From positions 1 through 58,245 of the forward strand of contig JAAZXC010000003.1 in the NCBI GenBank assembly GCA_014240365.1: a DNA stretch of 58,245 nt, written 5' to 3'. This document shows, in pieces, positions 8,022 to 36,358 of this stretch. Made by a program: the position numbers and the translations under genes. Position 1 is the first letter of the stretch; every line of letters starts with the position of its first letter. This stretch comes from Acidimicrobiales bacterium (lineage in GTDB: Bacteria; Actinomycetota; Acidimicrobiia; Acidimicrobiales; MedAcidi-G1). The notes beneath the pieces are model-generated. The model did not search any database. It saw only the letters and a list, made by a program, of their open reading frames with translations, and had not been told where the DNA came from.

Positions 8022-8026
8022 GGTCC

Positions 8027-9460
8027 TCAGCTCCCGCTTCCGGCGATCTGTTTTGCGAGCATTTCCTTCATCTCCGCAAGCGCCCGCTCCTCGCTGACAC
8101 CCGGGATGTAGGTGGTTCCGGCCAACGGCACCTTGGCCATGGCGGAGGCCTCGTGCGTGAGGGCCGCGAGGTCCTCCGGCTCGAGGTTGTGGATGTTGGT
8201 CTTGCCGCAGGCCCTTGCCAGCAACTGGACCTCCATGGTCAGCGTGTGCAGGAAGTTGTAGACCCGCAGCGCCGCCTCTTCGATGTCGAGGCGTGCCCGG
8301 AGCTCTACGTCCTGTGTGGCAACACCCACCGGGCAACGACCCGTGTGGCAGTGGTAGCACTCGCCGGCCGGCACACCGATGGTGCCCTCGTAGTCGGTCA
8401 CGCCCTCGATGTGCTTGTTGCAGTTCAGCGCCATCAGTGCGGCGGTTCCGATGGCACACGCCTTCGCACCGAGGGCGAGGCACTTGGCTACGTCACCACC
8501 ATTTCGGATTCCACCGGCCACCACTAGGTCCACCTCGTCGACGAGGCCCACGTCCTCGAGAGCACGTCGAGCCTCGGGAATGGCCGCCATGAGCGGGATG
8601 CCGGTCTCCTCTGTGGCGAGGTGCGGCCCGGCTCCGGTTCCACCCTCCGCGCCATCCAGGAAGATGGAATCGGGGCCGCACTTGGCGGCCATCCGCACGT
8701 CGTCGTAGACCCGCGAGGAACCCAACTTGAGCTGGATCGGAATCTGGTAGTTGGTTGCCTCCCGGATCTCCTGGATCTTCAAGGAGAGGTCGTCGGGACC
8801 GATCCAGTCAGGGTGGCGTGCAGGGGACCGCTGGTCTATGCCGGCGGGCAGGGAGCGCATCTCGGCCACCTGCTCGGTGACCTTCTGGCCCATGAGATGA
8901 CCGCCCAGACCGACCTTGCAGCCCTGGCCGATGAAGAACTCGACGGCATCGGCAAGCATGAGGTGGTGCGGGTTGAAGCCGTAGCGGCTCTGGATGACCT
9001 GGTAGAACCATCTGGTGGATAGGTCCCGCTCGGGCGGAATCATGCCGCCCTCACCTGAACACGTGGCCGTTCCGGCCATTGAGGCGCCCTTGGCGAGAGC
9101 CGACTTGGCCTCGATCGAGAGCGCACCGAAGCTCATGCCCGTGATATAGACGGGGATGTCCAACTCCAGCGGCGTGTGTGCGAACCGGCCACCGATGACC
9201 GTCTTGGTTTCGCACTTCTCCCTGTAGCCCTCGATCACGAAGCGAGTCAGCGTTCCCGGCAGGAACACCAGCTCGTCCCAGTGCGGGATCTTCTTGAACA
9301 TCGAGAATCCACGCATCCGGTACCGACCCAGCTCGGCCTTCACGTGGATGTCGTTGATGACCTCCGGAGTGAAGATCTTGCTCTTACCGAGGACGTCGGT
9401 GGCGGAGTTCGTGACGGTAGGTGGGGTGTCTACCCCTTTGATGTCGTTTGCTTCTGGCAT
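8027..9460 (-). CDS. mgsC: N-methylglutamate synthase subunit C (glutamate-synthase FMN/Fe-S domain protein)
   Basis: The 477-aa protein matches the FMN-binding alpha/beta barrel of glutamate synthase (GlxD-type): ITGMSFGALSIEAKSALAKGA early on, the GGTGAGPHLATEETGIPL stretch in the barrel, GGIRNGGDVAKCLALGA for the phosphate of FMN, and a cysteine cluster (CYHCHTGRCPVGV) that fits a 3Fe-4S site. With MgsA and MgsB it should make N-methylglutamate from gamma-glutamylmethylamide or methylamine and glutamate. The second ATG (9460) is preferred because AGGAGG lies eight bases before it; the first ATG (9466) touches that sequence. Confidence 0.85.
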   Translation of the reverse strand: MPEANDIKGVDTPPTVTNSATDVLGKSKIFTPEVINDIHVKAELGRYRMRGFSMFKKIPHWDELVFLPGTLTRFVIEGYREKCETKTVIGGRFAHTPLELDIPVYITGMSFGALSIEAKSALAKGASMAGTATCSGEGGMIPPERDLSTRWFYQVIQSRYGFNPHHLMLADAVEFFIGQGCKVGLGGHLMGQKVTEQVAEMRSLPAGIDQRSPARHPDWIGPDDLSLKIQEIREATNYQIPIQLKLGSSRVYDDVRMAAKCGPDSIFLDGAEGGTGAGPHLATEETGIPLMAAIPEARRALEDVGLVDEVDLVVAGGIRNGGDVAKCLALGAKACAIGTAALMALNCNKHIEGVTDYEGTIGVPAGECYHCHTGRCPVGVATQDVELRARLDIEEAALRVYNFLHTLTMEVQLLARACGKTNIHNLEPEDLAALTHEASAMAKVPLAGTTYIPGVSEERALAEMKEMLAKQIAGSGS

Positions 9461-9472
9461 CGTCATCTCCTC

Positions 9473-10264
9473 CTAGAGCACGAGCTTGCGCTCGGAGGGC
9501 TCCAGCGCGTCGTAGTTGTGGAGCACCTTGCCGCACTCGAACTTGTTGAAGTCCGGCGGGGTGCCGAGGTCGTATATCGCGAACTTGCGGTTGATGAACT
9601 CGTGGTCGTCGTCGGTCATCTCGGCCGGTACGCAGTCCACGCCGAGCGAGGCGATCTTCCCGCCGACATAGATGACGCCGTCGTACATGGAGTCGCCCAG
9701 GCCATCATGGGCGTCGCCACAGATGATCTGGTGGCCTCTCTGCATCATGAAGCCGGTGTTGATGCCGGCACTTCCCATGGTGATGATCGTGCCGCCCTTC
9801 TGGTCTATACCCGTCCTGGCGCCGACGTTGCCCTTGATGACCAGGTCGCCGCCTCGGAGGGCGGCCCCTGTCAGGGAGCCGGCGGGACCCTCGACGACGA
9901 TGGACCCGGACATCATGTTCTCGCCCAGTGCCCAGCCGACACGACCGTTGATCTGGACCTCGGGTCCGTCTATGAGGCCACAGGCGTACCAGCCGGGGCT
10001 TCCTTCGAAGGTCAGCTTGCAACGCTTCAAGATGCCCACACCGAGGGAGTGCTTGGACCCCGGATTCACGATGGTGACCTCGTTGACGCCCTCGTCGTAG
10101 ACGATGCGCTTCAACTCCAGGTTGATCTTGCGGGTCGTGAGGTCGGTGGCGTCTATCGTGGCCATCGCACCGTCGATCACCGCCGTCATCGGCGGCTCCG
10201 GATCCGGCTCGACGAGGCCCCGGGCGTCGTATACGACGCCGCTCTTGGTGTTCATACCTGCCAT
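9473..10264 (-). CDS. mgsB: N-methylglutamate synthase subunit B (GltB C-terminal GXGXG-type)
   Basis: The 263-aa protein has the repeated GXXXG beta-helix pattern of the glutamate synthase C-terminal domain, for example around residues 100-160 (VGWALGENMMSGSIVVEG, then GNVGARTG and GSAGINTGF). In class I glutamate synthases this helix holds the amidotransferase and synthase domains together; here it is a separate subunit, as in GlxC and MgsB. ATG 10264 has GAGGTG five bases upstream. The gene overlaps the end of mgsA by 13 bases; a second ATG at 10255 would give an ATGA overlap. Confidence 0.83.
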   Translation of the reverse strand: MAGMNTKSGVVYDARGLVEPDPEPPMTAVIDGAMATIDATDLTTRKINLELKRIVYDEGVNEVTIVNPGSKHSLGVGILKRCKLTFEGSPGWYACGLIDGPEVQINGRVGWALGENMMSGSIVVEGPAGSLTGAALRGGDLVIKGNVGARTGIDQKGGTIITMGSAGINTGFMMQRGHQIICGDAHDGLGDSMYDGVIYVGGKIASLGVDCVPAEMTDDDHEFINRKFAIYDLGTPPDFNKFECGKVLHNYDALEPSERKLVL

Positions 10265-11181
10265 GTCAACACCTCATTCTCGAACGGATCCCTGGTCTCG
10301 ACCTCGGTTCCGACGAGTGCCCGGATAGCGACCTCCTCGGAGGCCATTGCCACCAGGTTCTCGGTCTCCATGAGCACCAACGGCTTGGCCGCCATCTCGT
10401 CCTTTGCAATTCCCAACTCGTTGCCGGTGGCTACGAGATAGGTGTACACACCGTCGAAATCGTCAAGGCTGTGCTTCATGGCCGTCTCTAGCGAAAGGCC
10501 GTTCTCGAGCTGCTGTGCCAGGTACACGGCGATGATCTCGGAGTCGCACTGGGACTGGAACCGGTGGCCCATCCGCTCGAGGCGACGCCGCCACATGTGG
10601 TAGTTGGTGAGCTGGCCGTTGTGCACGACCGCCACGTCGGCGAACGGATAGGCCCAGTAGGGATGGGCGCTGGCCAGGTCCACGTCGGACTCGGTGGCCA
10701 TCCGGACGTGCCCGATGCCGTGCGTGCCCGACACCTTGGCGAGCCCGTACTGGTCATGCACAGTGTTGGCGTCGCCGAGGTCCTTGATGATCTCGAGCGA
10801 GCTACCCAGTGAGAGCACCTTGCAGCCCGGGATGTCCTCCAGGTAGTCGGCGAGGGGCTTCAGGTCCCCGCCGTAACGGATGGTCGCCCGGAAGGCGTAA
10901 CCGGTCTCGTTCTGGATGGTCGCCACCTCGGCGCCGATCTTTGCGAGACGTGACTCGACCTCGGCCCGGTTCCTCTCCAACTTCTCGTCCATGCCGAAGC
11001 CGGTGAAGTCGTTGGGCTCCGCCAGCATGAACCGGACGATGACCATCTCATCGGCCGGTCCGTAGATGGCGTAACCCGTTGAATCGGGGCCCCGGTGCTT
11101 CATGGAGTTGAGCATCGCTGTGAGCTCGTCGCCGATACTGGCTGCTCCGTCGCGGTGGATGATGCCGGCTATGCCGCACAT
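10252..11181 (-). CDS. mgsA: N-methylglutamate synthase subunit A (class II glutamine amidotransferase)
   Basis: The 309-aa protein begins MCGIAGIIHRDG, so after removal of Met the cysteine is the N-terminal nucleophile of class II (Ntn) glutamine amidotransferases. KHRGPDSTGYAIYG, GTHGIGHVRMATESDVD and the VVHNGQLTNY segment supply the usual oxyanion and glutamine-binding residues. It corresponds to GlxB/MgsA and would hydrolyse gamma-glutamylmethylamide, passing methylamine to MgsC. AGGAGA precedes the ATG. Without the gmaS neighbour, a glutamate-synthase-like role would be equally possible. Confidence 0.84.
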   Translation of the reverse strand: MCGIAGIIHRDGAASIGDELTAMLNSMKHRGPDSTGYAIYGPADEMVIVRFMLAEPNDFTGFGMDEKLERNRAEVESRLAKIGAEVATIQNETGYAFRATIRYGGDLKPLADYLEDIPGCKVLSLGSSLEIIKDLGDANTVHDQYGLAKVSGTHGIGHVRMATESDVDLASAHPYWAYPFADVAVVHNGQLTNYHMWRRRLERMGHRFQSQCDSEIIAVYLAQQLENGLSLETAMKHSLDDFDGVYTYLVATGNELGIAKDEMAAKPLVLMETENLVAMASEEVAIRALVGTEVETRDPFENEVLTWQV

Positions 11182-11217
11182 GGCGTGTCTCCTGCTATCT
11201 GTGTCTCGGGGGGTGCC

Positions 11218-12627
11218 CTACGGAAGGATGTCGAGGTACTCCTCGACGTCCCAGTCGGTCACCGAGGCCATGAAGCGCTCCCACTCATCGCGCTTGTAGT
11301 GCTCGAAGACCCTGTACATGTCGCCGGGGAGGGCGCTCTTGACGACCTCGTCCTTGTCGAGGGCGATGAGTGCCTCGCCGAGCGACATCGGGATCTTCTT
11401 GACGTCCTTGCCCTGGTCCATGGCCTCGTAGATGTTGCGCTCCTCAGGCGGTCCCGGGTCCAGGTCGTTGTCCAGACCGTCCTCCATGGACTTGATAAGT
11501 GCGGCCATTGTCAGGTACGGGTTCACCGCCGAGTCCACCGAGCGGTACTCGAAGCGCCCCGGAGCGCTGATGCGCAGGGCGGTGGTGCGGTTCTGGAAGC
11601 CCCAGTCGGCGAACACCGGAGCCCAGAAACCGGTATCCCAGAGGCGCCGGTACGAGTTCACGGTCGGTGAACCCAGGCAGGTCAACGCATCCAGGTGCTT
11701 CATGATCCCGCCGATGGCCTGCATGCCGATCGCGCCGGGGATCTGCATGTCGTCGCCCTCGGGCATGAACTTGTTCTCGCCACCCTCGTCGGGCTCGCCG
11801 GTCCAGAGGGAGATGTTGTGGTGGCAGCCGTTGGCCGACACGCCCATGAACGGCTTGGGCATGAAGCACGGGAAGGCGCCCATCTCACGACCCACCTGCT
11901 TGCAGATCTGGCGGTAGGTGGTGAGCCTGTCGGCCGTCAGCTCGGCACGGTCGAAGTTGAAGTTCAGCTCGAGTTGGCCGGGCGCGTCCTCGTGATCGCC
12001 CTGGATCATGTCCAGGCCCATGGCCTCGCCGTACTCCACCACCCGGTGGATGAGCGGCTGCAGCTCGGCGAACTGGTCGATGTGGTAGCAGTTCGGCTTG
12101 GTGAGGCCCTCGACGGTGGGCTTGCCGTTGGAGTCGGTCTTGAGCCACATCATCTCAGGCTCGCAGCCGGCCCGGAGGTGGAGGCCGGTCTTGGCCTCGA
12201 ACTCCTTGTGGATGCGGTGCAGGTTGCCGCGGCAGTCCGACGTCAGGAATGCGCCCGGTTCCACCTCTTCCTCACGGCCCCGGAAAAGAGTGCAGAAGAC
12301 GCGGGCGGTCTTGGGGTCCCACGGGAGCTTGCAGAAGGTCTCGGTCTCGGCGACACCGACCAGCTCGCGTGACTCGGCGCCGTAGCCGATGTAGTGGCCG
12401 TGGCGATCGGTGAACAGGTTGGCCGTGGAGCCGTAGACCAGCTGGAAGCCCTTGTTGGCGATTGTGGCGAAGTGCTTGGCGGGGATGCCCTTGCCCATGA
12501 TCCGACCGGTGACGGAAACGAACTGGCAGTAGAGGTACTGGATCTCCTCGACCTCGATCCGCCTCTGGATCTCGGCGACCTGCTCGGCCCGTCCCGGTGC
12601 CTCGATGAACTCCTGGATGTCAGTCAT
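11218..12627 (-). CDS. gmaS: Gamma-glutamylmethylamide synthetase (glutamine-synthetase family)
   Basis: The 469-aa protein is a glutamine-synthetase-family ligase with the ATP/glutamate core: EPEMMW, GQLELNF for metal binding, NGCHHNISLW for ATP and glutamate, and NRTTALRIS plus RFEYRSVDSAVNPYL near the end. GmaS joins glutamate and monomethylamine at the cost of ATP. The specific call rests on its place first in an operon with mgsABC and back to back with tdm; by sequence alone GlnT-type glutamine synthetase is hard to exclude. A strong GAGGGGGAA ribosome site precedes the ATG. Confidence 0.82.
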   Translation of the reverse strand: MTDIQEFIEAPGRAEQVAEIQRRIEVEEIQYLYCQFVSVTGRIMGKGIPAKHFATIANKGFQLVYGSTANLFTDRHGHYIGYGAESRELVGVAETETFCKLPWDPKTARVFCTLFRGREEEVEPGAFLTSDCRGNLHRIHKEFEAKTGLHLRAGCEPEMMWLKTDSNGKPTVEGLTKPNCYHIDQFAELQPLIHRVVEYGEAMGLDMIQGDHEDAPGQLELNFNFDRAELTADRLTTYRQICKQVGREMGAFPCFMPKPFMGVSANGCHHNISLWTGEPDEGGENKFMPEGDDMQIPGAIGMQAIGGIMKHLDALTCLGSPTVNSYRRLWDTGFWAPVFADWGFQNRTTALRISAPGRFEYRSVDSAVNPYLTMAALIKSMEDGLDNDLDPGPPEERNIYEAMDQGKDVKKIPMSLGEALIALDKDEVVKSALPGDMYRVFEHYKRDEWERFMASVTDWDVEEYLDILP

Positions 12628-12888
12628 AATTTCCCCCTCGCGCCCTGGGCGCTTTCCACCTGACCACCGGTTTCCATTGAAATGTGCCCGCGGTCACGTC
12701 TGTCGGACTGGGGTACCATAGCAATCAAGCACAAGTACTGCTAGTGAAATCTTCCACCGCAGGAAACTCTCTCTACACACAGGGGCGATTGCTTGAGTTA
12801 CGCTGGCTGACAAGGTTTTGCGATGGTGTAGCCGCAGATGGCGAGGCATCGACAGGCACGGAAACGGGTTGCCGAGGGGGGAAGAAGG
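12628..12888. promoter_or_regulatory. Divergent control region between gmaS and tdm
   Basis: These 261 bases must hold both promoters. I see TCAAGCA at 12725-12731 mirrored by TGCTTGA at 12790-12796, the palindrome AGTACT within 12733-12740, and strong ribosome sites at each end. No clear -10/-35 pair or known operator could be assigned. The distance and the mirrored heptamers fit joint control of both genes by one regulator. Confidence 0.5.
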
Positions 12889-15234
12889 ATGACGATCACG
12901 GTGGCAGAGCGGTCCCGGCTACTCATGCCCGGCATGGCCAACTTCGAACCCGGCGTGGAGCGCTACCGGGTCACCGGAGGCGCTGTCACCGCCGTCCTCA
13001 TGGGCGCCGGTGACAGGCTCGAGATCATCGATCCCGAGGGCTGCCAGCCCGTGGAGGTGGCCGCATTCGACCGGGATGGAAAGTCCGATCCCGGCCTGCT
13101 GGGCCATTCGTCGGGGGCTCCGGCCACCGGCATCGCCGCGATCCTGGCCGGCAACCAGCACGACGCCAGCCGGGTGGCTGACGCCCTCGCCCTGAGGGGC
13201 ATCGACCTGGGCGCCACCACCGCCATCCACTGCTTCTCGCAAGACTCGGCGCCCGCAGAGACCATCTGGATGACCGCCTCGGCCGACGTGGTGTGCGTGA
13301 TCGGCGTACCGGGCGGCGACATGTCACCGGAGGAACAGAACACACCTACCGATGTCATTGCCTTCATCCACCGAACCGCTCCCCCGGCGCCGGGCCTCGA
13401 GATCCTCCCCACCCCGCTGGCCGACCAGAACCAGGACCTCCGCATCCGGGCCGCCACGGCACGGGCCTACGAGGTGAAGGCAGGCGAGTTCATCCAGGTC
13501 ATCGACGTGGAAGGACGCGAGTGCTCGGACTTCCAGTGCTTCGACGCCGCCCAGCTGGACGGCGGCGTGGAGGCTGCGCTGGACGCCACCGTCACCCGCA
13601 GCCTCCTGGGCGCCAGCTACCCGATGCCGGGCCTCTACGCCAAGTACTTCACGCATGACTTCCAACCGATGGTCGAGATCATCCACGACACCGTTGGACG
13701 CCACGACACCTTCAACACGGCCTGCAACGCCAAGTACTACGAGGACATGGGCTACCCGGGCCACATCAACTGCAGCGACAACTTCAACTCGGTGCTGGCC
13801 CCGTACGGCATCGCCCCCCGCAGTGGGTGGGGAGCCATCAACTTCTTCTACAACACCAACCTGGACGACTCGAACCAACTCTTCTTCGAGGAGCCGTGGT
13901 CCCGACCCGGCGACTACGTCCTGCTCGAGGCCCTGACCGACCTGATCTGCGTCTCGTCAGCGTGCCCGTGTGACATCGACGCCGCCAACGGTTGGCAGCC
14001 CACCGACATCCATGTCCGCGTCTACCCGGCAACCAACACCTTCAAGAAAGCGACGGCCTTTCGCATGACCACCGATGCCGACCCAGAGCTGACAAAGGAG
14101 ACCGGCTTCCACCCCCGGACGTCGGCCCTCACCCGGAACTTCACAGAATACAACGGCTACTGGTTGGCCAACAGCTACACCAACCACGGCCCGATCGACG
14201 AGTACTGGGCCACCCGCGAGAAGGCCGGGATCATCGACCTCTCACCGCTGCGCAAGTACGAGGTGACGGGCCCCGATGCCGAACTGCTGCTGCAGACATG
14301 CATGACACGCAATATCCGCAAGCTGGCCGTCTACCAGATCGTCTACACGGCCATGTGCTACGACACCGGTGGGATGATCGACGACGGAACCCTGTTCCGG
14401 CTGGGTCCCGACAACTTCCGGTGGATCGGCGGCTCGGACGCCAGCGGGCTCTGGCTGCGCAGGCAGGCCAAGGAACTCGGCCTCCACGCATGGGTCCGCG
14501 ACTCCACCGACCAGCTCCACAACGTGCAGGTCCAGGGGCCACTCAGCCGGGAGATCCTCTCGGCGGTCATCTGGACCCGGCCCGACCAGGCACCGGCCGA
14601 GGAGCTGGGCTGGTTCCGGCTCTCGATCGCCAGGATCGGCCAGGCTGACGGCATCCCGATCATTCTTTCGCGCACCGGTTACACGGGCGAGCTGGGATTC
14701 GAGGTCTTCTGCCACCCGTCGAAGGCGCCGGAGGTGTGGGACGCCATCTGGGAGGCGGGGGAACCCAAGGGCCTCACGCCGCTCGGGTTCGAAGCCCTGG
14801 ACATGCTGCGCGTCGAGGCCGGGCTGGTCTACGCCGGTGCCGAGTTCTGCGACCAGACCAACCCCTTCGAAGCCGGCATCGGCTTCACGGTTCCTCTCAA
14901 GACCAAGGAGGACGACTTCATTGGCCGCGATGCCCTGGTCAGGGCCAAGGAGCACCCGCAACGCGTTCTGGTGGGTCTGGACCTGGTCGGCGACGACCTG
15001 GTGGGCAACGGCGACCCGGTCATGATCGACCGCCAACAGGTCGGCACGATCACCAGCGGGGCCCGGTCACCGATCCTGCGAAAGAACATCGCCCTCGCCC
15101 GGATGTCCATCGAGCACTCGGAGATCGGCACCGAGGTCGAGGTGGGAAAGATGGACGGTCACCAGAAGCGCCTACCGGCGACCGTCGTGCGCTTCCCGCA
15201 CTACGACCCGGACAAGGAGCGCGTACGTAGCTAG
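12889..15234 (+). CDS. tdm: Trimethylamine N-oxide demethylase Tdm (DUF1989-GcvT fusion)
   Basis: The 781-aa protein has a DUF1989 (urea-carboxylase-associated) half at about residues 10-375, and a GcvT/aminomethyltransferase folate-binding half at about 395-775 (LSPLRKYEVTG, SRTGYTGELGFEVF, LGFEALDMLRVEAGL). This layout is that of Tdm, which splits TMAO into dimethylamine and formaldehyde; the folate domain can trap the formaldehyde. Cys279, Cys295 and Cys359 have exactly the spacing (16 and 64) of the zinc-binding Cys263, Cys279 and Cys343 that I recall for Methylocella silvestris Tdm. The ATG at 12889 follows GAGGGGGGA; an in-frame ATG at 12838 lacks such a site. It diverges from gmaS. Confidence 0.87.
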   Translation: MTITVAERSRLLMPGMANFEPGVERYRVTGGAVTAVLMGAGDRLEIIDPEGCQPVEVAAFDRDGKSDPGLLGHSSGAPATGIAAILAGNQHDASRVADALALRGIDLGATTAIHCFSQDSAPAETIWMTASADVVCVIGVPGGDMSPEEQNTPTDVIAFIHRTAPPAPGLEILPTPLADQNQDLRIRAATARAYEVKAGEFIQVIDVEGRECSDFQCFDAAQLDGGVEAALDATVTRSLLGASYPMPGLYAKYFTHDFQPMVEIIHDTVGRHDTFNTACNAKYYEDMGYPGHINCSDNFNSVLAPYGIAPRSGWGAINFFYNTNLDDSNQLFFEEPWSRPGDYVLLEALTDLICVSSACPCDIDAANGWQPTDIHVRVYPATNTFKKATAFRMTTDADPELTKETGFHPRTSALTRNFTEYNGYWLANSYTNHGPIDEYWATREKAGIIDLSPLRKYEVTGPDAELLLQTCMTRNIRKLAVYQIVYTAMCYDTGGMIDDGTLFRLGPDNFRWIGGSDASGLWLRRQAKELGLHAWVRDSTDQLHNVQVQGPLSREILSAVIWTRPDQAPAEELGWFRLSIARIGQADGIPIILSRTGYTGELGFEVFCHPSKAPEVWDAIWEAGEPKGLTPLGFEALDMLRVEAGLVYAGAEFCDQTNPFEAGIGFTVPLKTKEDDFIGRDALVRAKEHPQRVLVGLDLVGDDLVGNGDPVMIDRQQVGTITSGARSPILRKNIALARMSIEHSEIGTEVEVGKMDGHQKRLPATVVRFPHYDPDKERVRS

Positions 15235-15239
15235 CCAGC

Positions 15240-15283: not shown

Positions 15284-15327
15284 CGGCGCGTTGGCAGGTG
15301 GGTCACGCAGCCCACCGGATCTTGGGC

Positions 15328-16533: not shown

Positions 16534-16558
16534 CTTGAGATGCCAGGCAACTGGATGG

Positions 16559-16912: not shown

Positions 16913-16948
16913 CTGACTACTTCTCCTGGTGACTGCTACTCGCCAGAG

Positions 16949-17092: not shown

Positions 17093-17093
17093 C

Positions 17094-17312
17094 TCACTCA
17101 CCTCCCGTCACTGCGTCTCGTGCGGCCAGCCGAGCGGCCGCGTGGTTGAGGTCCTTGTCCTCGTTCCTGATGATGTGAATCATGCTCAACAGGAACGCTG
17201 CGATACCCAGGCCCGTGAGCAGGAAAATAATGCTCTCGTTGTCGGCAAAGGTGTAGATGGCACCGTTCGCTTCAAGTGCCTCCGCCCAATCGGCGTAGGG
17301 AAAACTGTCCAT
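17094..17312 (-). CDS. 72-aa single-helix membrane miniprotein
   Basis: The product has an acidic, aromatic N-terminal part (MDSFPYADWAEALEANGAIY), one membrane helix at about residues 27-48 (ESIIFLLTGLGIAAFLLSMI) and a charged tail of about 24 residues. AAAAGGAG directly after the stop of the preceding 41-aa gene serves as its ribosome site. It lies third in the run starting with amt. No family is recognised; a small transporter-associated subunit is one possibility. Confidence 0.72.
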   Translation of the reverse strand: MDSFPYADWAEALEANGAIYTFADNESIIFLLTGLGIAAFLLSMIHIIRNEDKDLNHAAARLAARDAVTGGE

Positions 17313-17330
17313 TACGTTTCACACTCCTTT

Positions 17331-17456
17331 TCAGACTGAACTGTCGATGTCGTTCGCTTCTGCCTCACGCAGGGCCCTGGACTTACGGGTTGCCCAGATA
17401 CCCGCAGCCAGGACGACTGCGTACATCAGTGCAATGGCCCCGATGAGTTCCAGCAC
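17331..17456 (-). CDS. 41-aa single-helix miniprotein coupled to amt
   Basis: A GTG three bases after the amt stop opens a 41-codon frame: an N-terminal helix (LELIGAIALMYAVVLAAGIW) and a basic then acidic tail (ATRKSRALREAEANDIDSSV). GAGG at the end of amt can act as the ribosome site. The helix with the following WATRKS resembles the first membrane segment of sodium:solute symporters, but the frame stops there. It could be a genuine transporter accessory peptide; a relic of a larger gene seems less likely because the reading frames around it are tightly packed. Confidence 0.6.
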   Translation of the reverse strand: MLELIGAIALMYAVVLAAGIWATRKSRALREAEANDIDSSV

Positions 17457-17459
17457 CGA

Positions 17460-18833
17460 TCAGCCTCGGATCACCTGGCTGGCGGCCCTAACGAGTACTG
17501 GTGCCGCCGGTACCTCTCTACCGTCGGCCTCCACGATGATCTCGTCGGTGGCAGCGAAGTCCGGGTAGAAGTCCGTACCGAACTCAGCGATATCGATGCC
17601 CTCGAGCTCCACCTCTAGCGGGACTCGAAGGAGGTTCGCCCGCTTCAACAACCACGAGATTACATAGCCGGAAAGGAACGCCAACGGTATGAGCGTAGCG
17701 ATGCCGACCAACTGACCCAGGATGGTCACCCGGACGTTGCCCGAAAATCCACCGGTGGGATAGCCGCTGGCGAAGATGCCCATGAAGAGCACTCCCAGCA
17801 TTCCCGTCCAGCCGTGGACCGCCACCGCCCCGACCGCATCGTCCACCCGCATCTTCTTCTCCTGCCAGGTGCCGATCCACACGGCGAACGCCGCACCGGC
17901 CATTGCCAGCAGATAAGTCAACGACGGGGCGTAGACGTCAGCACCCGAGGACACGGCGATCACGCCGGCAAGACCGCCCGAGAGGGTCCAGAACGGATCC
18001 CCCTTGGAGCAGATGTAGCCGCTCATGAAGCCACCAGCGAAGGCAATGGTGATGGTGTAGGTGATGGCACCCAACGTGGTCGGGTTGTAGTAGATGGAGT
18101 TCCAACCCGGAGCCTCACCGGGCAGCACCGCCAGGCACGCCGCGTAGAAGGCGTAGAAGGCTGTGAAGATGATCATCAGGCCCATGAGGGTCATGTGGAG
18201 GTTGTGGGGTTTGAACGCCCGTGTACCTCCGGAGTCGTCGTACTTTCCGACCCGCGGACCCAGGTTGAACAGGACGCCCAGGGCGAATAGCCCGGCTACG
18301 CCGTGCACCACTCCTGATGCGGCGAAGTCGTGGAAGCCGAAGTGGACTGTAAGCCAACCGTGCCAACTCCAACCCCATGCCGCGGCGAGAATCCAAACGA
18401 ACGCACCGAGGAACACGGCGAGCACCAGGTAGGCCGAGACGCGGATGCGCTCGATGCAGGCACCAGACATGATCGAGCCAGTGGTCCAGGAGAACAGCAG
18501 GAACGCTGCCCAGAAGACGGCCATAACGTGGTCACCGATATTGGGACCCGACAGCTCGGACCATGGGAGAGTCATGGTGCACTCCCCGCCGTGGATGGCA
18601 TCGCCAATCGTCGGGATGAACCCCTGCGACATGCAGAAGTAGGTCCACCAGCCGGCGTAGTAGAAGGCCGGCGTCACCACGGCGATGGTCATGATGTTCT
18701 TGACCGCCGTCGACATGACGTTCTTGCGTCGGCTGACGCCCGCTTCGTAACACATGAAGCCCACATGAAGGAACCACATGAAGACAACCGTCACAAAATA
18801 GTAATTCTCGATGAAGATGTCGTCACCCATCAT
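17460..18833 (-). CDS. amt: Ammonium/methylammonium transporter, Amt family
   Basis: The 457-aa membrane protein has about eleven helices and the Amt signature features: an Asp followed eight residues later by the first pore His (DFAASGVVH, canonical DFAGGTVVH), and the second pore His in AVHGWTGMLG. The tail ELEGIDIAEFG is the usual C-terminal regulatory segment. The first signature is changed from GGT to ASG. Its position between tdm/gmaS and an XRE regulator suggests transport of methylammonium or recapture of leaked ammonium. GAGGAGGTG precedes the start. It heads a run with three miniproteins, a four-helix protein and an FAD oxidase. Confidence 0.88.
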   Translation of the reverse strand: MMGDDIFIENYYFVTVVFMWFLHVGFMCYEAGVSRRKNVMSTAVKNIMTIAVVTPAFYYAGWWTYFCMSQGFIPTIGDAIHGGECTMTLPWSELSGPNIGDHVMAVFWAAFLLFSWTTGSIMSGACIERIRVSAYLVLAVFLGAFVWILAAAWGWSWHGWLTVHFGFHDFAASGVVHGVAGLFALGVLFNLGPRVGKYDDSGGTRAFKPHNLHMTLMGLMIIFTAFYAFYAACLAVLPGEAPGWNSIYYNPTTLGAITYTITIAFAGGFMSGYICSKGDPFWTLSGGLAGVIAVSSGADVYAPSLTYLLAMAGAAFAVWIGTWQEKKMRVDDAVGAVAVHGWTGMLGVLFMGIFASGYPTGGFSGNVRVTILGQLVGIATLIPLAFLSGYVISWLLKRANLLRVPLEVELEGIDIAEFGTDFYPDFAATDEIIVEADGREVPAAPVLVRAASQVIRG

Positions 18834-26418: not shown

Positions 26419-28041
26419 TCAGGGCAGGATCGCCATCTGGTCTGCGATCGACCACGCCAGGAATTCCTCGAACTCGTCGTAGAAGGTCGATGACGACATG
26501 CCGTAGGCGTTGGCGAACGCCCCTTCCCAACCAAGATCCTCGATGCGCGGGAACATGACGTCCATGAGGTGGTCCGCTCCGAACCGGTTGGCCAGCCAGG
26601 CGTGTGCCCACGCCCCCATGTCGTAGCCGGTGGCGTAGCACGTGTCGCGGTTCATCGAACCGATCTTGAGGCCCGGGCATTCGATGCTGCGATTCTCGAG
26701 GCCGTTGACCACCTTCCTGCGCATCTGGTCGTCGAAGACATACGGGTGTCGGCCTTCAACGTTGACCTCCGGGAGCACTCCACTGGCACCTAGCCGCTTC
26801 TCTGCAGCGCTGGCCATGAACTCGGCGCCACCCTCCACGAACCATGTCGGACCCAGGAGTTCGTCCCGCAGGTCGAAGTCGGTGGTGTCGAACTGGGCGT
26901 GCTGAACGGCATGGAAGTACTCGTGGAGAATGACCTTCTGGTCATCTCGGCCGGAGATCATCGAGAAGTCGGACAGCCCCAGGAGCAGCGACGAGGTGAA
27001 GAAGTGGATGCCCCAGTCCCGGCTGCCATTGCGGCCGGCGTTGAGTCCCCCACCGCTCGCAACCGCATCAGCAGAAGTCCTCTGGTAGGTGATCATCCCG
27101 TAGTCACCACTACTGGTCTCGCCGTCCACGCAGTCGCTGCTGGTGTACGCACCCCAGGCGAGCTGGCCGCGGGCCGCACGCCGATCGCACTGGACCCCTA
27201 TGAGGGTCATCGCCGCTGCCTCGTCGGCGCCCAGGACCCAGTACTCCAGCGGTCCGTAGTTGCCCCACTCCTCAATCCCCACGAGCAGCGCCTTGGTCGC
27301 CCGCTCACAGACACGGTCATCCATGTCCGTCGTGCAGAACACCTCAGGCGTGTAACCCACGAGCATCCCCCACGCATCAATGCCAGCAGGCGCCACCGGA
27401 GCGCCAGCCGCCACGCAGTACCGGTATCCATCAGTCTCGCTGCACCCGACGGTGGTCCCCGGCGGATCCGTCGGGATCGACGCCCTCAGCCTCGCCGCCT
27501 CGGCCAGGGACGCTTCGTAGGAGTCCAGACATCCCAGGAGATTCTGCACCTCCTCGTACACCGGCTCGGTCTCACCCAGCTCAACGGCACGTGATTGGCC
27601 AACGACGCCTATCGCACAGATGGCAAAGGTCAGGTCACCGTCCCAGTGGGCCGCGGCAGCGACGTTAAAGCGGGCGAGGAGTTCAGGCTCGATCTGACGC
27701 TCAAGGGTGGTTGTGGTCGCCGCTGGAGCCTCAGTGGTCGTGGTTGCCGGAGCTTCGGTCGTCGCCGCTGGAGCCACAGTGGTCGTGGCGGCCGGGGCCT
27801 CGGTCGTCGTGGCGGCCGGAGCTTCAGTCGTCGCCGCTGGAGCCACAGTCGTCGTGGCGGCCGGGGCCTCGGTCGTCGCCGCTGGAGCCACAGTCGTCAC
27901 GACGACCGGAGCCTCAGTCGTCGCCGCAGGGGCGGCGTCCTGGTCGCCTGCCCCACCTCCCGACGAACACGCCGCGCCCGCCAGGGCCGCGACGAGGACC
28001 ACATGAGTCAGGCGCGTATTGCTCCACAACTTCCCACCCAT
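26419..28041 (-). CDS. Lipoprotein with a Thr/Ala/Pro linker and an HExxH metallopeptidase-like domain
   Basis: The 540-aa protein has a signal peptide ending at Cys25 (AALAGAACSSGGG), so it is probably a lipoprotein. Residues 36-113 form a low-complexity linker of repeats such as PAATTEAPAATTT. The globular part starts near residue 115 and contains HEYFH (His373, Glu374, His377), the zinc-binding motif of metallopeptidases, followed by VEGGAEFMAS, which could supply the third ligand. It probably acts outside the cell. Its stop lies 96 bases after the aminotransferase start. Peptidase family not assigned. Confidence 0.72.
   Translation of the reverse strand: MGGKLWSNTRLTHVVLVAALAGAACSSGGGAGDQDAAPAATTEAPVVVTTVAPAATTEAPAATTTVAPAATTEAPAATTTEAPAATTTVAPAATTEAPATTTTEAPAATTTTLERQIEPELLARFNVAAAAHWDGDLTFAICAIGVVGQSRAVELGETEPVYEEVQNLLGCLDSYEASLAEAARLRASIPTDPPGTTVGCSETDGYRYCVAAGAPVAPAGIDAWGMLVGYTPEVFCTTDMDDRVCERATKALLVGIEEWGNYGPLEYWVLGADEAAAMTLIGVQCDRRAARGQLAWGAYTSSDCVDGETSSGDYGMITYQRTSADAVASGGGLNAGRNGSRDWGIHFFTSSLLLGLSDFSMISGRDDQKVILHEYFHAVQHAQFDTTDFDLRDELLGPTWFVEGGAEFMASAAEKRLGASGVLPEVNVEGRHPYVFDDQMRRKVVNGLENRSIECPGLKIGSMNRDTCYATGYDMGAWAHAWLANRFGADHLMDVMFPRIEDLGWEGAFANAYGMSSSTFYDEFEEFLAWSIADQMAILP
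27703..27936 (-). repeat. Degenerate tandem repeat encoding the Ala-Thr-Pro linker
   Basis: Units of about 21-45 bases coding for AATTEAP and AATTTVAP recur through this stretch. They keep the reading frame, so they are part of the lipoprotein gene. Slippage here could change linker length. Confidence 0.7.
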
Positions 28042-29037: not shown

Positions 29038-29043
29038 TATGGT
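29038..29043 (+). promoter_or_regulatory. Leaderless -10 box TATGGT for dddP
   Basis: TATGGT lies seven bases before the GTG at 29051. The ATG at 29039 falls inside this box, which argues that GTG is the real start. Confidence 0.4.
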
Positions 29044-29050
29044 CCGCGTC

Positions 29051-30229
29051 GTGTCCGAGTTCCTGGCCACACCACCACTGGACCTGGCTGCGCTGCACGC
29101 CGGTCGCCTGGCCCGACTTCGATCCACCATGGCCGACCACGGCCTCGACCTGTGCGTGCTGACGAACCCGGTGAACCTGCGGTATGCAGCCGACTACCGG
29201 AACTTTCCGGTCTTCCAGAGCCATATTCCATCGACCTACCTGATGGTTCCGGTGGAGGGCCCCCTGGTGCTCTACGGCGGCTACTGCGGTCCACTCGACA
29301 CCATTGCCGACAACCGCCCCGCCCATTCGGTGACGAGCTTCGACGCCGGCCTGGACCTGGCGGCGGTCGCGGTCGGTTTCGCCGCCGACGTGGTCGGCTT
29401 CCTGGACGAGGTCGGCCTGGCGGCGGACGCCGTGGTCGGTCTGGAACGCACGACGCCCAGCGGGCATGCAGCTCTTAGCCACGCCGGCCTCCACATCGTC
29501 GACTCCGACCCTGTCCTGGAACTGGCCCGGAGTCGGAAGTCGTCGCTGGAAATCGAAGCGTTGCGTTACTCGATCGACGTGGCTGAACTCGGGCTGGCCG
29601 AAATGGAGGCGGCGCTGCTCCCCGGCATCAGCGAGAACCAGCTGTGGTCGATCCTCCACCAGGTCAACATTGCCCACGACGGGGACTGGATCGACGGACG
29701 GATGCTGTGTTCCGGCCCGAGGAGCAACCCGTGGTACCAGGAGGCGACCAGCCGGGCCATCCAGGTCGGCGACCTGGTTCCGTTCGACACCGACATGGTT
29801 GGCCCGTTCGGGTACTGCGCCGACATCTCACGGACGTTCCTGTGCGGAGGGGTGCCACCCACCGCCGAGCAGGTCTACCTCTACGAGCGGGCCCGGGATG
29901 AGATCGAACACAACATGGCGCTGCTGCACGTCGGAGCATCCTTCAGGGAGCTCTCCATGGGAGTGCTTCGCCAGCCCGACGACATCATCGCCCAGCAATA
30001 CGTCTGCGCATTCCACGGCGTGGGCCTGAGCGACGAGTATCCGAAGATCCCCTATCCCGACGAATGGGATCGCATTGGCTACGACGGCGAGGTCGAGGCC
30101 GGCCTGGTGCTGTCGGTCGAGAGCTACGTGGGCCCGCTGGGAGGCACCCAGGGCGTGAAGCTGGAGCAGATGGTCCAGGTCACGGCCGACGGGGTGGAGA
30201 CGCTGTCCTCCTATCCCTTCTGGGATTGA
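29051..30229 (+). CDS. dddP: DMSP lyase DddP (M24-fold metalloenzyme)
   Basis: The 392-aa protein belongs to the M24 (pita-bread) family and closely resembles DddP, which cleaves dimethylsulfoniopropionate to dimethyl sulfide and acrylate. Asp246, Asp248, Asp258, His322, Glu357 and Glu372 reproduce exactly the spacing (2, 10, 64, 35, 15) of the metal ligands I recall for Ruegeria DddP (Asp295, 297, 307, His371, Glu406, 421). SGPRSNPWYQE, PFDTDMVGPFGYCADISR and FHGVGLSDEYP follow the DddP pattern rather than Xaa-Pro peptidase or creatinase. It is somewhat shorter at the N-terminus. ATG 29039 is an alternative start. An amidase gene follows four bases later. Confidence 0.82.
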   Translation: MSEFLATPPLDLAALHAGRLARLRSTMADHGLDLCVLTNPVNLRYAADYRNFPVFQSHIPSTYLMVPVEGPLVLYGGYCGPLDTIADNRPAHSVTSFDAGLDLAAVAVGFAADVVGFLDEVGLAADAVVGLERTTPSGHAALSHAGLHIVDSDPVLELARSRKSSLEIEALRYSIDVAELGLAEMEAALLPGISENQLWSILHQVNIAHDGDWIDGRMLCSGPRSNPWYQEATSRAIQVGDLVPFDTDMVGPFGYCADISRTFLCGGVPPTAEQVYLYERARDEIEHNMALLHVGASFRELSMGVLRQPDDIIAQQYVCAFHGVGLSDEYPKIPYPDEWDRIGYDGEVEAGLVLSVESYVGPLGGTQGVKLEQMVQVTADGVETLSSYPFWD

Positions 30230-30232
30230 GGC

Positions 30233-31657
30233 ATGCGAGTGCTGAGGCCCGACGAGTACGACCGCCACGACGCCGTCGGGCTGGCCTCGCTGGTGGCCAT
30301 CGGCGAGGTGACGGCAGCCGAGCTGACCGAGACCGCGATCTCACGCATCGGGGCGACGGAGATGCCCCTGAACGGCGTGATCGCCACCTGCTTTACCGAC
30401 GCCCGCCGCGACGTCAAGGCTGGCCGCCTGGTCGGTCCGTTGGCCGGCGTGCCGTTCCTGGTCAAGGACCTGAACACCTGGGTCCGTGGCATGGCGGCCA
30501 GCAACGGCAGTCGGGCCCTCGCCGGCTTCGTGCCCGAGCACGACTCCGTGCTGGTCGGGCGCCTGCGGGCCGCCGGGCTGGTCCTCCTCGGGAAGACCAA
30601 CACACCGGAGTTCGGCCTGAACGTCTGCACGGCGCCGGCGATGTTCGGAGTCACCCCCAACCCCTTTGATCCGACCCGCAGTGCGGGAGGCTCGAGCGGC
30701 GGTTCAGCCGTAGCGGTGGCCACCGGCATCGTGCCCGCTGCTCACGCCACAGACAGCGGAGGGTCGATTCGGATCCCCGCCTCGAACTGCGGACTGTTCG
30801 GGCTGAAGCCGTCGCGGTCGCGTGTCCCGCTCGGGAACGACCAACCCGAGGGCCTGGGCGGGTTGAGCGCCGGCCACGCCGTGACCCACAGCGTGCGCGA
30901 CTCGGCGGTCCTGCTGGACGCCACCGCCGGGCCACTGCCCGGACGCTCCGAAGGGTTCAGCGGATCCACGGAGTCGTTCGCCGAGGCGCTGACCCACGCC
31001 ATGCCCGAACTCCGCGTGGCGTTGTGGACCGAAGGCCTGGCCGGCGAGGCGGTGTCGGCGCAGTGCGTCCGGGCCGCCGTCGACGCAGCGCACCTCAGCG
31101 AGACCGTCGGCTGCCGGGTGGAGGAGGTGAGACCACCGGTCGAGGGGGCGGCGCTGCGCCGGGCACTCGACGTGATCTTCACCACGAACATCCGCCGGGT
31201 GGTGCACGCCGTGCTGGCCGACCAGCCGAACGCCCTGGCTGCCGGGCTGCTGGAGCCGATCAGCGTTGCGTGCTTCGAGGCCGGCGCCCGCCACGACGAT
31301 GCCGACTACGAGACCGCCCTTGGCCACATACGGAGGGTGGCCGAGGACATGGAGGCGTTCTTCGAACAGTTCGACCTGCTGCTCACCCCCACGCTGGCCG
31401 AACCGCCCATGGCGCTCGGGGTGCTGGACATGCAGAGCGACGGCTGGGACGCCTACTTCGGCCGACTGCTGGATGCGATCCCGTTCACCCCGCTGTTCAA
31501 CGTGACCGGCGGTCCGGCTGCGTCCGTACCCCTCGGCTGTTCCGACGGCGGCCTGCCGATCGGGGTCCAGTTCGGCGCGGCGCTGGGCGCCGAGGCCACG
31601 GTCCTTCGCCTGGCCCGGGAACTCGAGTTGGCGAAGCCCTGGCATGACCGCATCTGA
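30233..31657 (+). CDS. Amidase signature family protein
   Basis: The 474-aa protein has the Ser-cisSer-Lys catalytic layout: lysine in GVPFLVKDLN (about residue 79), the Gly/Ser-rich GGSSGGSAVAVATG stretch with both serines, and ATDSGGSIRIPASNCG around the acyl site. GKTNTPEFG is also typical. It hydrolyses a carboxamide; the substrate is not evident. It starts three bases after the dddP stop and overlaps the next gene by 14 bases, so the three form an operon. It could also be a GatA relative, but no gatB or gatC is near. Confidence 0.85.
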   Translation: MRVLRPDEYDRHDAVGLASLVAIGEVTAAELTETAISRIGATEMPLNGVIATCFTDARRDVKAGRLVGPLAGVPFLVKDLNTWVRGMAASNGSRALAGFVPEHDSVLVGRLRAAGLVLLGKTNTPEFGLNVCTAPAMFGVTPNPFDPTRSAGGSSGGSAVAVATGIVPAAHATDSGGSIRIPASNCGLFGLKPSRSRVPLGNDQPEGLGGLSAGHAVTHSVRDSAVLLDATAGPLPGRSEGFSGSTESFAEALTHAMPELRVALWTEGLAGEAVSAQCVRAAVDAAHLSETVGCRVEEVRPPVEGAALRRALDVIFTTNIRRVVHAVLADQPNALAAGLLEPISVACFEAGARHDDADYETALGHIRRVAEDMEAFFEQFDLLLTPTLAEPPMALGVLDMQSDGWDAYFGRLLDAIPFTPLFNVTGGPAASVPLGCSDGGLPIGVQFGAALGAEATVLRLARELELAKPWHDRI

Positions 31658-32579
31658 CCGGGTCGTCACCCTCTACGACGCCTTCTCGGAGGTCCCCGGC
31701 GGCGGCAGCGTGGCCGGCGTGGTCGGGGCCGCTTCGGGGTTCAGCGCAGACCGGATGCAGCAGGTCGCCACCGAGGTGGGTGCGCCGGCCACCTGCTTCA
31801 TCACCGGGGTGGGCTCCGGAATGGATTTCGGGATGGTGGACGTCCGGTTCTTCTCGACGATCACCGAGTACCCGATGTGTGGGCACGGGACCATCGCCGT
31901 GTTCACCTGGCTGGTCGAGGAGGGCCTGCTGGAGGTGGGCCCGGAAACCGTGTCGTGGATCCTCAGGACGCCCGGTGGCAATGCGGCCGTGAACGTAGTC
32001 GCACGGCCCGATGGGCGGCCGGAGGTCCTGCTGGCCCTGGATCCGACCGTTGCCGAGCCCTGCTCCGTCACCGCCGCCGAGGTGGCGCCACTCCTGGGCA
32101 TCGGCGTCGGGGTGATCCTCGAACCGTTGGCCATCGAAGCAGCGAGCGCCGACTTCACGCATCTGGTCGTCCAGGTCGACTCCCTGGCCGCCATCAAGGC
32201 GGTGGCGCCGGACCATGCGGCGGTTGCGGACCTGTGCCGCCGCGTCGGCGCCGACACTCTGGCGGTGTTCACCACCGACACAGGTGACGCAGGGGTGACC
32301 ATCAGGTGCCGGGACTTCTGTCCGGCAGTGGGAACTCCCGAGGCCGCCGCCACCGGCACCACCAACCGCGCCCTGGCCTGCCACCTCCTGCGTCAAGGCC
32401 TGGTCGACCTCGGGGCAGGCGACCCGGTCGTGGTGGCTGTCCAGGGTGTGGAGATGGGTCGCCCCAGCATCATCCGCACCGAGGTCACCCTGGTCGACGG
32501 GCTGCCTACCCGGCTCAGCGTGGGTGGGGTGGCCACCAGGTCCTCGGAGTCGACCGGGGTGATGGGCAGCCGGCGATGA
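31644..32579 (+). CDS. PhzF-family isomerase-like protein
   Basis: The 311-aa protein has the PhzF/diaminopimelate-epimerase-like two-domain fold signatures: an early YDAFSEVPGGGSVAGVV (usually GNPxxV), ATCFI, FFSTITEYPMCGHGTIAVFTWL near residue 70, with a cysteine before GHGT, and a late PAVGTPEAAATGTTN. Family members include epimerases and isomerases of amino or hydroxy acids. The role beside an amidase and DddP is unknown. A trans-3-hydroxyproline dehydratase-like function is another option. Confidence 0.75.
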   Translation: MTASDRVVTLYDAFSEVPGGGSVAGVVGAASGFSADRMQQVATEVGAPATCFITGVGSGMDFGMVDVRFFSTITEYPMCGHGTIAVFTWLVEEGLLEVGPETVSWILRTPGGNAAVNVVARPDGRPEVLLALDPTVAEPCSVTAAEVAPLLGIGVGVILEPLAIEAASADFTHLVVQVDSLAAIKAVAPDHAAVADLCRRVGADTLAVFTTDTGDAGVTIRCRDFCPAVGTPEAAATGTTNRALACHLLRQGLVDLGAGDPVVVAVQGVEMGRPSIIRTEVTLVDGLPTRLSVGGVATRSSESTGVMGSRR

Positions 32580-33729: not shown

Positions 33730-34935
33730 ATGGGAATGAACCTCTACGACACGGCCCGGGGTGAGGTGGTCCCATTTCAGCCCGGACCAAAGGTGTCGAT
33801 GTACGTCTGCGGAATCACCCCGTACGACGCGACCCACCTCGGACACGCCTTCACCTATCTGACGTTCGACCTGGTGGTCCGCCGCCTCGAGGACCTCGGA
33901 CACGAGGTCCGGATGGTGCGCAACGTCACCGACGTGGACGATTCCATCCTGGCCAAGGCCCGCGACATCGGCATCGACTACCAGGACCTGGCGGCCCGCG
34001 AGATGGAGCTCTTCCATGCCGACCTGGCGGCCCTGGACCTGAGGCCCGCCACAGCCGAACCCACGGCGACCGGCTCCGTCGACGGGATCCTGGACCTGAT
34101 CGGTCGCCTCGAGGCCGGCGGCCACACCTACGCCGTCGAGGGCAACACCTACTTCGACGTGTCCACCTGGGACGGGTTCGGTTCGATGACCGGACTGGAC
34201 GAGGCCACCATGCTCACCTACGCCGCCGACCGCGGCGGCAACCCGGACGACCCCCGGCAGCGCAACCCACTGGACTTCGTGCTCTGGCAGGCCAGCACCG
34301 CCGGTGAGCCGTCATGGGATTCACCGTTCGGGCCGGGTCGCCCCGGCTGGCACATCGAATGTTCCGCCATGGCCATGGCGGAACTGGGCGAGACCATTGA
34401 CCTGCACGGTGGCGGCGACGACCTGACGTTCCCCCACCACGAGTGCGAGGCGACCCAGAGCGAGGCAGCCACCGGCGTGCCCCTGGCCCGCCACTGGATG
34501 CACGTGGGGATGGTGGCCTACGAGGGCACCAAGATGTCCAAGTCGCTCGGGAACCTCGTGTTCGTCCGGAATCTGCGCCGCATGCACGACCCGAGAGCCA
34601 TCCGCCTGGCGCTCATGGCCCACCACTACCGGGCCGGATTCGAGTGGTTCGACTACGACATCGACGACGCCGTCACCCGTCTGGACAGGCTCGTGAGTGC
34701 GGCACGCAGGACCAAGGGGCCGAACCCCGCCCCCACCCTTGCTGCGGTACGTGCCGCCCTGGACGACGACCTCGACACCGTGACAGCACGCGATGCCATT
34801 GACCTGCTGGCGAGCGGGATCCTGGCCGGGTCCGGCGAGGATCCGACTGCTGCCTCAGGGCTGGCCAGCGCTGCCGCCCTGCTGGGCCTGCGGCTGGACG
34901 CCACCATCCCGGAGTCCTGGGTCCGCACCACCTGA
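33730..34935 (+). CDS. mshC: Cysteine:glucosaminyl-inositol ligase MshC (mycothiol synthesis)
   Basis: The 401-aa protein is a class I aminoacyl-tRNA-synthetase fold enzyme with the HIGH-like THLGHAFTYLTFD, a zinc-binding CGITPYDATHLG cysteine, PGWHIECSAMA, GGGDDLTFPHHE and the KMSKS loop. Length, missing C-terminal tRNA-binding part and details such as YVCGITPYDATHLGHA fit MshC, which adds cysteine to GlcN-inositol in mycothiol synthesis. The direct neighbour is true cysS, which supports the paralogue reading. Mycothiol can serve as formaldehyde cofactor in actinobacteria, relevant to the demethylases here (inference). Confidence 0.87.
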   Translation: MGMNLYDTARGEVVPFQPGPKVSMYVCGITPYDATHLGHAFTYLTFDLVVRRLEDLGHEVRMVRNVTDVDDSILAKARDIGIDYQDLAAREMELFHADLAALDLRPATAEPTATGSVDGILDLIGRLEAGGHTYAVEGNTYFDVSTWDGFGSMTGLDEATMLTYAADRGGNPDDPRQRNPLDFVLWQASTAGEPSWDSPFGPGRPGWHIECSAMAMAELGETIDLHGGGDDLTFPHHECEATQSEAATGVPLARHWMHVGMVAYEGTKMSKSLGNLVFVRNLRRMHDPRAIRLALMAHHYRAGFEWFDYDIDDAVTRLDRLVSAARRTKGPNPAPTLAAVRAALDDDLDTVTARDAIDLLASGILAGSGEDPTAASGLASAAALLGLRLDATIPESWVRTT

Positions 34936-34957
34936 CCCGACCTCGGCCAGCCGGCCG

Positions 34958-34963
34958 TATCCT
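34958..34963 (+). promoter_or_regulatory. Leaderless -10 box TATCCT for cysS
   Basis: TATCCT lies six bases before the GTG at 34970. Confidence 0.42.
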
Positions 34964-34969
34964 GACCCG

Positions 34970-36358
34970 GTGCTGCGATTCACCGACAGCCTGACCGGCA
35001 AAAAGGTCGAGTTCACCCCACGCGACCCCGGGAAGGCATCGGTCTACTGGTGTGGACCCACCGTCTACGACGACCCCCACCTCGGGCACGCCCGCTCCAC
35101 GCTGGCATTCGACGTGCTGGTCCGATACCTGCGCTGGTCTGACTACGACGTGTGCGCCGTGTCGAACATCACCGACATCGACGACAAGATCATCAACCGG
35201 GCCGCTGCCGAAGGCGGCAGCGAACCCGAGGTGGCTGGCCGCTACGAGGCCTCGTTCATAGGCCAGATGGACCGCCTGAACGTGGCGCATCCGGACCTGC
35301 GTCCCCGGGCCACCGAGTACGTGGACAAGATGGTCGAGATCATTGCCGATCTGGTCGACCGGGAGATGGCCTACACGACCGACTCCGGCGTCTACTTCGA
35401 CGTGGACCGTCTGGACGACTACGGCGCGCTCGTGGGCAGGTCGGTGGAGGATCTCCGGGAGGGCGCCGGCGCCCGGGTGGAGGTGGACGACGACAAGAAC
35501 GATCCACTGGACTTCGCTCTCTGGAAGGCCGCCAAGCCGGGCGAACCCACCTGGGACTCGCCGTGGGGACCCGGCCGCCCCGGCTGGCACATCGAGTGCG
35601 TCGCCATGTCACTGCACCTGCTGGGTGACGGCTTCGACATCCATGGCGGAGGCGACGACCTCGTCTTCCCGCACCACGAGAACGAACGCGCCGAGGCCCT
35701 CGGCTGCGGCAGGGCCTTCGCCCGCCACTGGGTCCACAACGCAATGGTCCAGGTGGATGGCGAGAAGATGTCCAAGTCGCTTGGCAACTTCACCACCCTG
35801 GACGACCTGCTCAACACCTGGGACCCCCGGGCGCTGCGCCTGCTGGTCCTCCAGACGCACTACCGGCGCACCATGGAGGTCGGCTCGACAACGCTCGACC
35901 AGTCGGCCGCTGCCCTGGCACGCCTAGACAAGTTTGCCGACCGGATGGCCGGTTCCGACCTCCCCGAGGCCGAGCCGGATGCCGACGTCGTGACCCGCTT
36001 CAGAACCGCCATGGACGATGACCTCGGCTCGCCACAGGCCCTCGCGGTGATCTTCGATGCCGTACGGGACGCCAACCGGGCGCTGGATGCCGAGGACGAC
36101 TCCACCGCAGCCGAACTGCACGCGGCCGCCATCGAACTGGCCGGGGTACTGGGACTGGAACTGGGATCGGCCGCCGCTCCGGCACGAGATGTCCAGGACG
36201 ATGCCGAAGCCGCCGAGATCGATGACCTGGTCGACCAGCGCGTTGCCGCCAAGGCGGCGAAGAACTACGACAAGGCCGACCGCATCCGGGACAAGCTGAC
36301 CGCCCGGGGAATAATCCTGGAGGACTCAGCCCGGGGCACCTCCTGGCACCGGGGCTGA
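34970..36358 (+). CDS. cysS: Cysteinyl-tRNA synthetase
   Basis: The 462-aa protein has YWCGPTVYDDPHLGHARS (zinc Cys and HIGH motif), NITDIDDKII, PGWHIECVAMS, GGGDDLVFPHHENE and KMSKSLGNF. It also has the C-terminal DALR region and the helical tail (AKAAKNYDKADRIRDKL) that binds tRNA-Cys, all missing from the adjacent mshC. It charges tRNA-Cys. The GTG start is supported by the -10 box upstream and by the conserved FTDSLTGKK opening. Confidence 0.95.
   Translation: MLRFTDSLTGKKVEFTPRDPGKASVYWCGPTVYDDPHLGHARSTLAFDVLVRYLRWSDYDVCAVSNITDIDDKIINRAAAEGGSEPEVAGRYEASFIGQMDRLNVAHPDLRPRATEYVDKMVEIIADLVDREMAYTTDSGVYFDVDRLDDYGALVGRSVEDLREGAGARVEVDDDKNDPLDFALWKAAKPGEPTWDSPWGPGRPGWHIECVAMSLHLLGDGFDIHGGGDDLVFPHHENERAEALGCGRAFARHWVHNAMVQVDGEKMSKSLGNFTTLDDLLNTWDPRALRLLVLQTHYRRTMEVGSTTLDQSAAALARLDKFADRMAGSDLPEAEPDADVVTRFRTAMDDDLGSPQALAVIFDAVRDANRALDAEDDSTAAELHAAAIELAGVLGLELGSAAAPARDVQDDAEAAEIDDLVDQRVAAKAAKNYDKADRIRDKLTARGIILEDSARGTSWHRG

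Follow-up and report, generated by a model that had tools for sequence, protein, structure and literature searches.

The window examined here, a 58,245-nucleotide stretch of acidimicrobial DNA, contains an intact ORF for an M24 protein that, from its sequence, belongs to a subfamily of its own, a paralogue of the DMSP lyase DddP. We named this clade FQSHIP, after a motif in its N-terminal domain. The initial annotation had called the protein a DddP-type DMSP lyase. That assignment was not borne out, given ligands shared far beyond the lyases, a score of 283 bits on a DddP model that requires 600, a separate clade, a lost N-domain segment and coexistence with true DddP. Instead, we favor with about even confidence a DddP-like enzyme that takes part in breaking down an N-methylated osmolyte (betaine-like or a methylated amine) or a derivative of one. 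We read it this way because of the separate clade, the low model score, the coexistence of the two families, the loss of R102, the genes enriched around its relatives and the trimethylamine N-oxide (TMAO) demethylase in the window. Features are listed in Table 1.

Table 1. Coordinates of the M24 gene, its operon partners and context genes in the window
Feature	Coordinates	Strand	Evidence or remark
DddP-like M24 metalloenzyme, FQSHIP clade	29051..30229	+	start may be ATG 29039
F-Q-S-H-I-P motif, residues 55-60, in place of DddP W95-P100	29213..29230	+	alignment
Amidase-signature amidase, operon gene 2	30233..31657	+	PF01425 E 7e-86; synteny
PhzF-family isomerase, operon gene 3	31644..32579	+	TIGR00654 113.7 bits, cut-off 76.2; PF02567; synteny
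Trimethylamine N-oxide demethylase (context, outside operon)	12838..15234	+	NF053776 1206.9 bits, cut-off 1100
Glutamine-synthetase-like, class II amidotransferase-like and glutamate-synthase-like genes (context)	8027..12627	-	partial matches below cut-off

The start of the M24 gene is uncertain: the GTG at 29051 and an in-frame ATG 12 nt earlier are both present in the two closest orthologues. A start at 28442, giving a long ORF, was rejected, as the alignment with relatives begins only at about 29039-29051. The gap to the amidase gene is 3 nt, the amidase and PhzF genes overlap by 14 nt, and the M24-amidase-PhzF order is kept in six other genomes of the same genus, although two of the PhzF copies at these six loci are cut by contig ends. 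At one such same-genus locus the M24 identity is 62%. The spacing and synteny confirm the earlier proposal that the gene forms an operon with an amidase and a PhzF-like gene. No equivalog was reached when the amidase was compared with the NCBIfam models.

The best solved relatives of the M24 protein are RlDddP (4rzy; E 5e-67) and RdDddP (4b28), at about 34% identity. An AlphaFold2 model built from an alignment of relatives (mean pLDDT 93.7) matched 4rzy with a Z of 46.3 and an rmsd of 2.0 over 390 residues. The four solved structures closest to the model are all DddP (Z 46.1-46.3), and the next family reaches Z 34.6. The model has the M24 pita-bread fold together with a DddP-type N-terminal domain, so that the DddP fold is predicted with confidence. 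In the alignment, D246, D248, D258, H322, E357 and E372 correspond to the RlDddP ligands D295, D297, D307, H371, E406 and E421. The steps between them are 2, 10, 64, 35 and 15 residues in both proteins, exactly as the initial annotation had claimed for the spacing of Ruegeria DddP. Equivalents of the RlDddP residues Tyr366 and Asp377 (Y317 and D328, candidate catalytic residues) are also present, as they are in all 25 members of the FQSHIP clade.

We aligned 9 true DddPs, 25 window-type proteins and 42 other DddP-like proteins residue by residue. All six ligands were invariant in the three sets; Tyr366 was absent once and Asp377 six times, in every case among the 42 other DddP-like proteins. 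Since the ligands are common to every DddP-like protein sampled, they cannot discriminate a DMSP lyase. At the level of this alignment, the six ligands with the Tyr and Asp mark off a broad DddP-like superfamily from ordinary M24 peptidases, not DMSP lyases from their sisters. An ordinary M24 Xaa-Pro peptidase is a highly improbable identity for the window protein. Its M24 and creatinase-N domains do exceed the Pfam cut-offs, but the sequence match to such peptidases has an E of about 1e-9 as against 5e-67 for DddP, the fold Z is 34.6 as against 46.3, and D248 is an extra ligand. In addition, the two His positions of M24 peptidases are changed to Y or L and to D (Y229 and D328 in the window protein, aligned to RlDddP F278 and D377); the F278 column is His in three of four outgroup M24 proteins.

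Creatinase was considered as the nearest family and was so in no comparison (7yto: E 1.8e-4 versus 5e-67 for DddP). The ectoine hydrolase DoeA model NF038259 gave the window protein 37 bits against a cut-off of 575. Ectoine hydrolase (DoeA/EutD) and creatinase have the M24 fold and act on an osmolyte or N-methyl compound, as we suggest for the window protein, but they are only about 20% identical to it, with Z about 32 and a sequence score far below that of DddP. Their sites, which we take to be of a five-ligand type, differ from the six-ligand site found here. The initial annotation had proposed to look for a grouping with ectoine hydrolase, creatinase or Xaa-Pro peptidase as evidence against it; this check was run and no such grouping was seen.

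Placement within the DddP-like proteins was then judged from model scores and trees. The NCBIfam DddP equivalog NF043017 gives the window protein 283 bits (E 3e-84), under half its cut-off of 600. True DddPs sampled score 695-907 bits on this model, and window-type proteins of the same genus 255-283 bits, those sampled having E-values of 1.5e-75 or better. In maximum-likelihood trees the window-type proteins and the true DddPs each formed a clade with SH-aLRT 100, with many DddP-like lineages between them. The window protein thus did not fall into a single clade with the verified DddPs, which in this tree are bacterial; the root is uncertain, as outgroup branches are long. Forcing the two clades together cost the best such tree 51 log units (p-AU 0.028, a generous value because the grouping was itself drawn from a first tree). 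Among 24 genomes reached via related loci, proteins of 695-907 bits occurred in seven, six of which also carry a window-type protein. Because both coexist in these six genomes, the FQSHIP proteins and DddP are paralogues. The two families agree in fold, in six ligands with identical spacing and in the Tyr366/Asp377 equivalents, but differ in overall sequence (34% identity), model score, clade, the neighbors of relatives and a set of otherwise conserved residues.

These residues lie largely in one segment. Throughout the clade, F-Q-S-H-I-P stands where RlDddP has W-N-T-H-N-P, and the DddP-invariant M92, W95, N99 and R102 are F, F, I and T in the window protein. R102 is present in 9 of 9 DddPs and 42 of 42 other DddP-like proteins and is lost in the FQSHIP clade, where M92 is replaced by Y or F, W95 mostly by F, N99 mostly by I, and W379 by Y. 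The active-site tunnel of one DddP chain is built in part by the N-terminal domain of its partner chain (PMC4108388), so a change of substrate in the FQSHIP clade through its remodelled N-domain is plausible by analogy. We do not claim W95 as the sulfur-binding Trp of DddP, as the residue number of the latter was not found in the literature.

A divergent DddP that cleaves DMSP to DMS and acrylate is, in our estimate, distinctly unlikely, but this reading stays alive because FgDddP is a verified DddP with 32% identity to RdDddP (PMC4108388). The fold, the six ligands and the Tyr366 and Asp377 equivalents are consistent with it, as is an AcuI/YhdH-type acryloyl-CoA reductase in the host genome (436 bits, cut-off 297). 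Against it stand the separate clade, the low model score, the remodelled segment, the coexistence with true DddP and the betaine-type neighbors of relatives. Furthermore, DmdA had no match over cut-off in the host genome, and a closer relative of DddP is encoded there on contig C119. This paralogue (L006, L133) belongs to the same superfamily and has all the key residues, but it scores 423 bits on the DddP model, is 44% identical to RlDddP, lies nearer true DddP in the tree and has the NMQxWxxHNxxR motif. It is the host genome's better DddP candidate, and most of the sampled genomes of the family have a counterpart. Yet its neighbors are of the methylated-amine type: at C119:7662-14731 it shares a run with the gene for an MttB-family methyltransferase of full length (622 bits) and with genes for a DAO-GcvT demethylase and an enolase-superfamily protein. 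Another DddP-like clade, the third in this genus (L017, L018, L020), is about 43% identical to the window protein; Gly stands at its Asp377 position, so that its active site probably differs.

The neighbors of 23 deduplicated window-type loci were compared with those of other M24 genes at 40 control loci, which were chosen by hand, nearly all from the same genomes, with none among the DddP-model matches. A Rieske oxygenase was found at 7 of the 23 FQSHIP loci versus 2 of the 40 controls (p 0.009), a DAO-GcvT (dimethylglycine-dehydrogenase-type) demethylase at 6 versus 0 (p 0.0015), and an enolase-superfamily enzyme at 5 versus 0 (p 0.005), in loci that are not phylogenetically independent. Each neighbor type is missing from most FQSHIP loci (about two thirds), and MttB, amidase and PhzF were not enriched across the clade in this comparison. 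This stricter count was used instead of a loose one lacking a coverage filter, in which FQSHIP and other DddP-like loci did not differ in demethylases or ABC ATPases. The nearest solved relative of the Rieske protein is carnitine monooxygenase. Gene orders vary; uptake genes of the ProV/ProX type and regulators of the AraC/DJ-1 type also occur at some loci, and one same-genus orthologue (64%) is divergent from a DAO-GcvT demethylase gene. The link to N-demethylation is thus above background for relatives in the clade but does not extend to the window operon itself, which has no demethylase, Rieske or betaine transporter gene. The earlier suggestion of a user of methylated osmolytes therefore gains support from the neighbors of relatives, with the qualification that these point to N-methyl compounds and not to DMSP.

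Methylated-amine genes are missing from the surroundings of some FQSHIP loci, and within the genus the amidase and PhzF partners are conserved. Both facts would suit an enzyme of general scavenging that hydrolyses a small amide, amidino or peptide compound; amidase and PhzF would then carry the degradation further, and the association of relatives with betaine genes would be incidental. M24 enzymes in general hydrolyse C-N bonds. We consider this doubtful, if the least so of the alternatives, in view of the neighbor enrichment and the altered His positions. RlDddP, with D and F at those positions, had no Val-Pro activity (PMC5395565).

If the window enzyme acts on an N-methylated osmolyte, as we favor, it would perhaps cleave a C-N bond, by analogy with DddP. 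The substrate would be bound through its carboxylate by the metal pair and Asp328 would act as base, the C-N bond being broken much as DddP breaks the C-S bond of DMSP; alternatively, the bond would be hydrolysed in the manner of creatinase. Within the genus, the amidase and PhzF of the same operon may then take over the product. Counted against the favored reading are the gene content of that operon, its distance from the methylated-amine genes, the many FQSHIP loci that lack a given neighbor type, the non-independence of the loci, the lack of clade-wide enrichment of amidase and PhzF, the retention of Y366 and D377, and the divergence of the verified FgDddP. A more specific proposal, which we regard as unlikely, is that FQSHIP does for nitrogen what DddP does for sulfur: it would be an M24 lyase acting on the C-N bond of a betaine (for example beta-alanine betaine) with release of a methylated amine, and DddP would have been recruited from a betaine-catabolic superfamily.

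The dddP gene is counted among the ocean's most abundant DMSP lyase genes. The initial annotation was right to stress an actinobacterial host, but dddP calls in Acidimicrobiia have already been published (PMC7494906, PMC13280387). The metagenome HMM cut-offs for dddP were E <= 1e-50 (PMC7494906) and 1e-30 with 40% similarity (PMC13280387). On the NCBIfam DddP model, the E-values of the window protein and of the same-genus members sampled are lower than these cut-offs. A family that probably does not cleave DMSP could thus enter dddP estimates, notably for Acidimicrobiia, as gauged by the NCBIfam model and not by the papers' own. The MAG dddP calls in PMC7494906 used a 40% identity threshold, which the window protein would fail and the C119 paralogue would pass. 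Known ddd genes were absent from cultured actinobacteria able to form DMS from DMSP (PMC6309047). The window gene should be kept out of DMSP lyase counts until it has been assayed. The FQSHIP clade also provides a defined enzyme set for asking whether DddP arose from betaine-catabolism enzymes. Our literature searches found no paper describing this clade and nothing relevant on an M24 gene in betaine/Rieske clusters. Homarine catabolism was also considered, and nothing linked the FQSHIP gene to homarine.

The methylated-amine genes of the window lie 14 kb from the M24 operon. TMAO use, which had been proposed for this window, is supported by the demethylase score (Table 1). The adjacent genes on the opposite strand are possibly an N-methylglutamate pathway for methylamine, a name given from gene content. 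Overall, the region 6131-18833 contains the TMAO demethylase and the N-methylglutamate-type candidate genes, then an ammonium-transporter-like protein. At two acidimicrobial loci (L034:6513-7946, L029:1-827) the FQSHIP M24 gene and a choline-sulfatase-like gene are divergently oriented, and further downstream are glutamine-synthetase-like and amidotransferase-like genes, 85% and 77% identical to those of the window.

Elsewhere in the window, the gene at 23687-24868 matches the reductive dehalogenase model TIGR02486 (173.7, cut-off 160.35); it adjoins a class III aminotransferase gene, and the pair is kept in two genomes of the same genus. The product of the ORF at 26419-28041 is probably a lipoprotein; it has a long repeat linker rich in Ala, Thr and Pro and weakly matches HExxH peptidases of the flagellinolysin type. 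Two tandem cysteinyl-tRNA-synthetase-like genes occupy 33730-36358, the first of which resembles a mycothiol-type ligase (MshC).
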